64,000 bases of DNA from Halorientalis litorea. Lineage in GTDB: Archaea > Halobacteriota > Halobacteria > Halobacteriales > Haloarculaceae. Positions 10,753-54,657 of this stretch are shown one piece after another. A model generated the notes under the pieces. It did not search any database. It saw only the letters and a list, made by a program, of their open reading frames with translations, and was not told the origin of the DNA. The position numbers and the translations under genes were made by a program. The stretch lies in the NCBI RefSeq assembly GCF_023028225.1, contig NZ_CP095482.1, positions 1,674,001 to 1,738,000 of the forward strand. Reading direction: 5' to 3'. Position 1 is the stretch's first letter. Every line of letters starts with the position of its first letter.

Positions 10753-11196
10753 ATGCACGAGACACGCGAGCAGTTCCTCGCAGGCGACCGCCCCGACGAC
10801 GTGCTCATCTTCTTCAGCGAGACTGCCGTCGAGCGACTCGACCGCCTCGCGGAGGTCGGCGAGTCCGTCTCCGGCGGCGTCGTCCTCGTTCTCGCGGCCG
10901 AGAAGGGCCGGACGGCCTTCCAGCAGGCGACCGACGTGGACCCGATGTCGCTCGCCGGCTCCGCGATGGGCGTCGAGGGTGAAATCGCCCCGGACTGCAC
11001 CGGCGGCGACTGCCCGGCCGTCGTGGACGAGGGTGAACAGAGTGCCGTCCACGACCCCCGCTTCATCTTCGCGTTCGCCGAGGCCCAGAACGAGGAGGTC
11101 GGGGACCTCTACGCCGAGGGCGACGTGATTCACGCCTACGCGCTCTGTGAGTGTGGCACCGCCTACTCCCAGAAGTGGGTCGCCGGCGAGCGGTAG
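10753..11196 (+). CDS. Conserved haloarchaeal protein (DUF5807-like)
   Basis: 147 residues, soluble, acidic, with five cysteines. Two are in DCTGGDCP and two in ALCECGTAY, so metal binding is possible. From memory it resembles the DUF5807 family of haloarchaea, for which no function is known to me; this assignment needs a profile search. The start MHETREQFLAGDRPDDV looks like a normal N terminus. It is convergent with the DHH gene and its duplicated 3' end. Confidence 0.75.
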   Translation: MHETREQFLAGDRPDDVLIFFSETAVERLDRLAEVGESVSGGVVLVLAAEKGRTAFQQATDVDPMSLAGSAMGVEGEIAPDCTGGDCPAVVDEGEQSAVHDPRFIFAFAEAQNEEVGDLYAEGDVIHAYALCECGTAYSQKWVAGER

Positions 11197-11244
11197 GGAT
11201 CGCTACTCGCTGGCGTCTACTTCCTCGCCGCTCTCCGCTCCGCG

Positions 11245-11600
11245 CTCCTCGTCCGCCGCTTCGACTTCGCGCTTCACGTCGTGGAACGCCTCGATGATGA
11301 CCTGCCACCTTTTTCGCCTCGGGCGCGCTCCGCGCACCGCTCGGCGAAAAACGTGGGCGAAAAAGCAGCCACTCGCTCCGCTCGTGGCTGTCCTACTCCT
11401 CGTCCGCCGCTTCGACTTCGCGCTTCACGTCGTGGAACGCCTCGATGATGACCTGCCACCTTTTTCGCCTCGGGCGCGCTCCGCGCACCGCTCGGCGAAA
11501 AACGTGGGCGAAAAAGCAGCCACTCGCTCCGCTCGTGGCTGTCCTACTCCTCGTCCGCCGCTTCGACTTCGCGCTTCACGTCGTGGAACGCCTCGATGAT
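11245..11600. repeat. 151-bp tandem duplication at the 3' end of the DHH gene
   Basis: Two identical 151-bp units (11245-11395 and 11396-11546) are followed by a 54-bp partial third copy (11547-11600) that is the real 3' end of the DHH gene. Each unit holds the codons for the last 18 or so residues, then (on the minus strand) a TAG and about 95 bp of palindromic, T-run-rich sequence (AGCCAC...GTGGCT and TTTTTCGCC...GGCGAAAAA) of terminator type. Reading copy 1 on the minus strand, the frame continues past the position of the stop to another TAG at 11203-11205. Confidence 0.92.
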
Positions 11601-12629
11601 TACTTGCTTGGCCACCGCACCCTCCGTCGTCCAGTGGTGGGCGTAGTCGAGCATGTCGTCGTAGATGTCGGGCTTACAGCCCGCGGCCTTGGGGTGGCCG
11701 CCGCCGTTGACCTTGCCGGCGACTTCGTGTGCGTGCTCGAAGGAGTCCGTCCCGCGAATCGAGGCCGACCCGGCGGGCTTGACGATGACGGCGGCGTCGG
11801 TCCCCTGCTCGCGCAGTGCTTCGGCGACTTCGTTCTGGGAACAGCGGCCGTAGGTGATGCCGACGGTCCACGGACCGATGTCCCGAATCTCGGCGCGGTC
11901 GACGGCGAACTCGATGAGTGCTTCCTTCTCGACGCGCTGTTCGGCGAGGAACTCCTCGACCGCCGCCGGGAGGTCAGGGCCGTGTTCGCGCACCACGTCG
12001 ACGTACTCCTCGGGGTCGGCCCAGTAGGCGTAGTCCGCGAGGTCGTCGCTCCGGGGGTCCTCCCGGAGCCAGAGGTCGTGGTCGCGGGTCACGACCGCCA
12101 GTGCTTCGAGGTGGTCGGGGAAGTCGTAGTCCAGCGACCGCACCGCCACGTCGGCGGTACACTCCTCCTCGGACTCGCCGACGACCCGCCGCGTGACGTG
12201 GTCGTCCACGAGTTCGCCGAGGGCCTCGTCCCACTGGTGGTGGTCGAACCAGTGGACCTCGCTCGCCAGTTCTGCGACGGCACCGAGCGGGTCAACGTCC
12301 TCGGGCGAGTCCGGGCAGAGGTCACAGACGAACACGGGAACGCCGGCGTCGGCGTACTCGGTGACGAAGGTGAGTGCTTGCTTGATGTCCCGCGGTCCAG
12401 CGGGGAGCAGTGCGGCGTCGGCGACGGCTTCCCGGACCAGCGCGGTACAGGCGAGGCCGTCGGCGTCGGGGTCGGCGACGACGACGGCGGGTGCGTCGGT
12501 GAGCGTCGCCTCGGCTTCGCGCTCCCGTTCGACCTCCTCGACCGAATCGGGGTGGAAGAAGCCTTCTCCGGGGAGGCGGGATTTCCGCGAGAGAGAGAGT
12601 CTGTCGTCGTCGATGAGCCAGTCGTCCAT
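11544..12629 (-). CDS. DHH-family phosphoesterase
   Basis: 361 residues with all DHH/DHHA1 hallmarks: VVADPDADG (about residue 50), VFVCDLCPD, the name-giving WFDHHQWD, and C-terminal VNGGGHPKAAGC. These bind Mn ions and the phosphate of small nucleotides or ssDNA ends. The substrate is unknown; archaeal members include RecJ-like nucleases and oligonucleotide or cyclic-dinucleotide phosphodiesterases. The last residues (VKREVEAADEE) lie in a tandem duplication that may have shortened the protein by about 14 acidic residues compared with the reading frame preserved in the outermost copy. Confidence 0.93.
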   Translation of the reverse strand: MDDWLIDDDRLSLSRKSRLPGEGFFHPDSVEEVEREREAEATLTDAPAVVVADPDADGLACTALVREAVADAALLPAGPRDIKQALTFVTEYADAGVPVFVCDLCPDSPEDVDPLGAVAELASEVHWFDHHQWDEALGELVDDHVTRRVVGESEEECTADVAVRSLDYDFPDHLEALAVVTRDHDLWLREDPRSDDLADYAYWADPEEYVDVVREHGPDLPAAVEEFLAEQRVEKEALIEFAVDRAEIRDIGPWTVGITYGRCSQNEVAEALREQGTDAAVIVKPAGSASIRGTDSFEHAHEVAGKVNGGGHPKAAGCKPDIYDDMLDYAHHWTTEGAVAKQVIIEAFHDVKREVEAADEE

Positions 12630-54215: not shown

Positions 54216-54569
54216 GTGGACGAGGAACGTAGCATCGAACAAGTCCTCGACACCATCGGGGACGAACACGCACGTGCGATACTCGCTGCAATAAGCATCG
54301 AGCCGCAGTCGGCGAAGGAACTCGCCGAGGAGACTGGACTGTCGCTGCCGACTGTCTACCGTCGCATCGAGATACTCGAAGAACACGAACTCGTCAAAGA
54401 CCGGACGCTGGTCGCCGACGACGGCAACCACTACAAGATATACGAGTCGAACTTCGACTCGACCGTCATCTCGCTCGAAGAGGAGGGCGAGTACCGCGTC
54501 CGCATCTACCGCGAAGAGAACCTGCCCGACCGGTTCAGCCAACTCTGGGACGAACTCAATCCCGACTGA
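54216..54569 (+). CDS. Winged-helix transcriptional regulator (ArsR-like)
   Basis: 117 residues from a GTG. The helix-turn-helix is SAKELAEETGLSLPTVYRRIEIL, followed by a wing with KDRTLVADDGNHYKIYESNFD. It resembles the regulator at 10360. A T-rich promoter-like AATATCTTTTTAC lies about 30 nt upstream. A small membrane protein gene follows after 88 nt; this regulator-plus-membrane-protein pair is a recurrent haloarchaeal unit, so the membrane protein may be its sensor or target. Confidence 0.88.
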   Translation: MDEERSIEQVLDTIGDEHARAILAAISIEPQSAKELAEETGLSLPTVYRRIEILEEHELVKDRTLVADDGNHYKIYESNFDSTVISLEEEGEYRVRIYREENLPDRFSQLWDELNPD

Positions 54570-54657
54570 CCCGACCCGTGGCTGAACTGCTTACAGACTG
54601 ACCTGACTCGCGGCCGAACTGCTTATATTTATACCGGGCGCACGAGCAACCAACTGT

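Follow-up and report, generated by a model that had tools for sequence, protein, structure and literature searches.

In this study, we analysed a 64,000-nucleotide stretch of the Halorientalis litorea genome (contig NZ_CP095482.1, positions 1,674,001 to 1,738,000; hereafter the window), focusing on the repeated 3' end of a DHH-type phosphoesterase gene at 11544..12629 on the minus strand. Our analyses suggested, with good probability, that a mobile hairpin element inserted into this gene before its old stop codon, that the flanking repeat of the gene end is a by-product of the insertion, that the resulting unit was doubled by unequal crossover, and that the element probably acts as a two-way transcription terminator. 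The element is a small non-coding hairpin of about 60-95 bp, and its family is spread through Halobacteriales.

The DHH gene, taken from the open reading frame (ORF) list, codes for 361 aa and ends in EAADEE at a TAG (11544-11546); its product showed a weak match to PF02272 (DHHA1, 0.00031), under the cut-off of that family. Two units of 151 bp each (11245-11395 and 11396-11546), 100% identical to one another in the repeat search (TRF), lie at this end, and the functional last codons of the gene form a third, partial copy of 61 bp (11547-11607, direct repeat family D2) that is 59/61 identical to the units. Our repeat comparison thus agrees with the original prediction of an exact tandem doubling plus a partial copy with diverged synonymous codons: both mismatches are synonymous, the gene reading CAA GTA and the units CAG GTC. 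Both differences are at the element junction, no more than 6 nt past the element, in a zone that is variable throughout the hairpin family, and the rest of the gene-end repeat is 100% identical over 54 bp.

In each unit, 60 bp come from the DHH 3' end, and the other 91 bp, made up of a new stop codon, a small hairpin and a 60-nt hairpin element as core, belong to a dispersed repeat family. Read along the minus strand, the last codons of the gene (CAAGTAATC... to GAGGAG, 11547..11607) and the TAG are followed by the inner small hairpin (GACAGCCACGAGCGGAGCGAGTGGCTGC, 11516..11543, from the fold of the 94-nt element region) and by the inner copy of the element (TTTTTCGCCCACGTTTTT...AAAAAGGTGG, 11456..11515), found by genome search with its end motif at 11456-11465. 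Next come the middle gene-end copy (CAGGTCATC...GAGGAG, 11396..11455), a second TAG with small hairpin (11365..11395, in the 100% identical outer unit) and the outer copy of the element (11305..11364), which folds as CCAC.GTTTTTCGCC...GGCGAAAAAG.GTGG with a G-G mismatch and shows compensatory changes in relatives. The outermost copy (11203..11304) runs from CAGGTC...GAGGAG into CGCGGAGCG..., in frame up to a TAG at 11203-11205, and translates as QVIIEAFHDVKREVEAADEERGAESGEEVDASE*. The element sits just before the old stop, with the last 60 bp of the gene on both sides and the new TAG at the element edge. Its end motif AAAAAGGTGG occurs twice in the window, both times at the DHH locus, against an expectation of 0.02. 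The copy number is given as assembled (a 2.8-Mb contig of a 5-contig assembly), and comparable arrays are present in near-complete assemblies.

Comparison with relatives supported the view that the outermost copy (...EEVDASE) preserves the old C terminus of DHH. Orthologs were identified in all seven congeners (G001-G007; 77-83% identical), five of which (G001, G003, G004, G005 and G006) carry no element at this gene. The element-free orthologs mostly end in acidic tails such as ...DEEDEGVETE and ...DDEGVETER, which match ...RGAESGEEVDASE in the alignment rather than a stop at EAADEE. The proposed check on ortholog ends thus supports the predicted older terminus, and the present gene is indeed shorter and ends at a palindromic element with T-runs. 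One congener locus, L035 (L-numbers denote individual loci), runs against this pattern, since its DHH is short (ADAEDE) although element-free; tail length therefore varies independently of the element as well.

At other loci, empty sites in relatives showed insertion. When the flanks of locus L223 in genome G016 were joined and searched in congeners, a contiguous 97% match was found in G037, whose empty site ends in TAATCGATAC, exactly like the outer copy at L223; the insert is 145 bp, of which 50 are duplicated gene end. In G002 the DHH gene bears a separate element, with a short duplication, in G007 it has a degenerate element-like insert, and three Haloarcula-type loci have a DHH element at another junction, common to all three; because another Halorientalis and three Haloarcula bear elements of their own, insertion at DHH is recurrent. 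For the L353-group gene, compared at loci reading in the correct orientation and grouped by shared junctions, elements occur at differing junctions in H. litorea, G001 and G006, one is present in G002, and G003 and G004 have none. Differing and shared junctions in these two genes indicate that insertion has recurred and that some insertions are old and shared. The doubling can be accommodated as well: from the order gene-end (L), element, gene-end (R), crossing over of R on one sister with L on the other would produce a hybrid middle copy as seen at 11393-11455, which has the R-type (outer) left edge (CAGGTC) and the L-type (inner) right edge (TAG plus hairpin). Similar hybrid middle copies are found at L076, L151, L177 and L347, and the copy number at one gene differs among congeners (3 in G004, 2 in G003, 1 in G006).

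The 60-nt hairpin element of the family has the form T5CGC plus CCACG-T5...A5-GGTGG. A 94-nt non-coding query found about 13 further places in the H. litorea genome at E<1e-3, while the end motif AAAAAGGTGG has 21 occurrences, all on the main contig, corresponding to about 20 element copies. The core TTTTTSGCCCACGTTTTT was found in 89 of 146 family genomes, with at most 29 per genome and no match to a reversed-pattern control, and a variant core, TTTTTGGTCCAGCTTTTT, with an identical right end exists elsewhere in the order. Haloarcula hispanica also carries copies. The right end AAAAAGGTGG is fixed in most copies, and the distance to the left is variable (0-231 nt). Three core matches in viral contigs were attributed to chance, as none had the other end of the element. 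The family is apparently undescribed and unnamed: no description was found in the literature covered, which included few subscription papers, so that an earlier one may exist, and Rfam gave no family match (best 11.8 bits against a gathering score of 50). The 'NmIRS' repeats of Natronomonas, considered as a possible parallel with duplicated gene ends, did not turn up in the text of the paper and were left out of the comparison.

In one orientation of the element, the gene end is as a rule duplicated. The survey covered 245 non-redundant elements possessing a right end. In 102 of them the 3' end of the adjacent gene recurs as a direct repeat across the element (score at least 18), compared with 7 of 1000 mispaired flanks. 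These repeats measure 24-238 bp (median about 56, 87 cases) and usually include the stop codon; of the 53 repeats in an initial set, 43 were located where a + strand ORF ends, with the stop mostly inside or within a few bases.

Several observations weigh against insertion with gene-end copying as a general account. No flanking repeat was detected at the remaining 143 of the 245 copies, many of which are reversed and sit precisely where a convergent gene has its stop codon. The convergent stop falls 0-1 nt from the element end (CCACC) in 44 of the 80 repeat-less copies having such a gene, L004, L006, L013 and L014 being loci with this arrangement, and TAA is over-used among those stops about threefold (32/53 vs 185/904, Fisher p 1e-9). 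Repeat-less copies fit insertion only if the far gene-end copy has decayed. Differences within the bodies of the gene-end copies are mainly synonymous (127 vs 60, with codon position 3 in 128/187). Searches for a mover were negative too: RVT_1 (PF00078) was absent from the eight Halorientalis genomes although controls were positive, no element or element end was found near any of the 20 Y1 transposase loci checked in the genus, and G001 has 18 copies and no Y1_Tnp.

The fold of the outer copy (-35.6 kcal/mol, z -4.28) consists of CCAC, a G-G mismatch and T5:A5, followed by a variable inner stem; both sides have changed at 6 of 17 consensus pairs, and the inner stems differ in 30 of 32. T5C is present in the core on both strands, and the core mostly begins 20-60 nt from the stop codon, so that T5C lies downstream of the stop as in haloarchaeal T-stretch terminators. 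Since the runs occur on both strands, the element probably acts as a two-way terminator. Insertion of T5C stopped 95% of transcripts in Haloferax (PMC7237163). Haloferax volcanii has intrinsic terminators (PMC7237163) in which TTTTTC runs likewise follow genes and some sites also have hairpins, but here the runs are borne by a conserved dispersed element and the gene end is duplicated.

Once formed, the gene-end copies seem to evolve together. Identity between the two copies within a species is 0.95-0.99, against a divergence of about 20% for the gene itself among the three DHH loci with the second junction; in 29 of 34 tests, a gene-side copy had its own outer copy as nearest relative. The pattern is in keeping with recombination that continues to homogenise the copies, but repeated insertion at one point would leave a similar picture. 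Homogenisation does not extend to the first 8 nt past the element, which have substitutions clustered at positions 1-6 and an excess of A>G and C>T near the element (60 vs 18 reverse, p 2e-6). In addition, 33 of 87 gene-end copies have one extra base, mostly C, exactly at the fourth position after AAAAAGGTGG, for which no convincing explanation was found; templating by the opposite hairpin arm was rejected, as L011 and L353 have a different arm and still gain C or T (n=2). The share of synonymous differences exceeds the estimate for dead copies, and divergence under coding constraint is therefore likely at some loci, through exchange with diverged homologs or through periodic loss of the element with re-use of the outer copy.

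It had been predicted that DNA from a diverged homolog was joined to the DHH gene end and then duplicated. The two synonymous codon differences here and the family-wide synonymous excess would suit such an origin, which we nevertheless regard as unlikely for this locus, because the unit bears a dispersed hairpin that recurs with the same end and layout at dozens of unrelated genes, relatives retain exact empty sites, and the repeat body is 100% identical with both differences confined to the junction. What stands of that proposal is a likely exchange at some loci; as the primary cause it did not hold. Plain slippage, in which a gene end already provided with a terminator hairpin was duplicated locally without any mobile element, would explain the direct tandem layout, and hairpins favour slippage, while arrays of 2-3 units are common. 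It would also leave a hairpin after the last copy, whereas here and at most loci the last copy joins the native tail directly; moreover, the hairpin keeps its sequence at unrelated genes and in different genera, and comparison of G037 with G016 suggests that hairpin and repeat were gained in one step. Slippage alone is thus very improbable.

Two further explanations concern the element itself. A retroposon-like insertion by target-primed reverse transcription would be consistent with a fixed right end, a variable left end and duplications of 24-238 bp, but the lack of RVT_1 (0 of 8 genus genomes) and of an A-tail makes it quite unlikely. The element could also be a guide-RNA unit of the TnpB/omega-RNA kind, with the hairpin as scaffold and the outer copy as a guide to the gene's own 3' end, given that the copy begins exactly at the hairpin 3' end and that mismatches and the extra base gather in the first 8 nt with an A>G and C>T bias. 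This we consider hardly credible: the gene-side match is preceded by no target-adjacent motif (at most 0.28 bits at 25 upstream positions and <0.2 in the nearest 14), and the copies far exceed guide length.

The inserted hairpin element favoured here shares features with several known systems. Integrative elements at the 3' ends of tRNAs and other genes (att sites) duplicate the gene 3' end and restore the gene; in this case there is no integrase, the element is only 60-95 bp, and the targets are many and unrelated. The conserved stem mismatch resembles that of repetitive extragenic palindromic (REP) hairpins, for which long direct repeats of a gene end are not known. REP sequences and their associated tyrosine transposases (PMC2817692) are also comparable as imperfect palindromes dispersed outside genes, but no tyrosine transposase gene was found near copies of our element. 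Palindrome-associated transposable elements (PATEs) of Haloquadratum (PMC3119063) are similarly short, non-coding, palindromic and haloarchaeal, with strain- or species-specific insertions; they are defined by the lack of a target duplication, whereas 102 of 245 copies here are flanked by gene-end repeats of 24-238 bp. PATE ends are related to those of IS605-type transposons; for the present family, no element end was seen near 20 Y1 loci in the genus. SMRs of the same genus (PMC3119063) are about 80-110 bp and of enigmatic mobilisation, but they have inverted repeats without target duplication and target other mobile elements, whereas the present element targets gene 3' ends. Miniature inverted-repeat transposable elements (MITEs) are small, non-autonomous and bounded by inverted and direct repeats; their duplications are short and of a length fixed by the parent transposase, in contrast to the tenfold variation found here (24-238 nt, 87 cases, stop codon included), and no parent was found among the partners searched, Y1 and RVT_1. 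With such long and variable duplications, the family falls outside the definitions of MITEs, PATEs and SMRs, and a usual transposase footprint is ruled out.

As a best guess at the mechanism, strands may switch at the hairpin while DNA is replicated, so that the element is copied in with its right end set by the hairpin foot. The left end and the upstream return point would then vary, whereas the right end would stay the same. A dedicated recombinase as the mover is nearly as likely. For DHH, the element would have entered the gene and left the flanking gene-end repeat as a by-product, a single unequal crossover between the two 60-bp repeats would have doubled the 151-bp unit, and the element would be tolerated, we propose, because the gene end is rebuilt. 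The neighbouring gene, DUF5807 (10753..11196, + strand; PF19123, 1.9e-45), converges on DHH, and only 6 bp lie between its stop and the old DHH stop; two convergent genes that almost touched were apparently parted by the insertion.

Other features were observed in addition. Extra palindromic modules occur inside elements at L012, L017 and L358 of H. litorea, which may be a second repeat family inside the first, and at L058:590-860 a single gene end has two nested elements, whose gene-end copies are unequal in length. L082, L132, L134 and L153 keep only the first 10-15 nt of the element (TTTTTCGCCC...) after the last gene-end copy, which are perhaps deletion scars at the hairpin foot. L005 and L009 (H. 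litorea, C1 near 1349190 and 37653) have elements directly 3' of tRNAs, and at L009 a second copy of the tRNA 3' end follows beyond the element. Outside this family, a tRNA-like 3' end (AATCCGGAGTGGCCCACGTTTT) at L042 (C1 939280-939420) is repeated 129 bp apart, like att-site remnants, and the window contains a 32-bp unit at 54564-54625 (about 2 repeats, 86% match, TRF).

It is possible, though on present evidence doubtful, that these elements form a distinct class of mobile hairpins, which would dock at gene 3' ends, copy 20-240 bp to rebuild the gene, add a two-way terminator and be kept in step by recombination, sometimes across genera. If the inserted-hairpin explanation is right, dozens of insertion sites would be available for the study of the insertion mechanism, and annotators would read gene-end fragments beside genes as insertion by-products and not as decayed genes. 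A common repeat family would then be shaping haloarchaeal gene ends, by changing C termini, parting convergent genes with terminators and seeding arrays.
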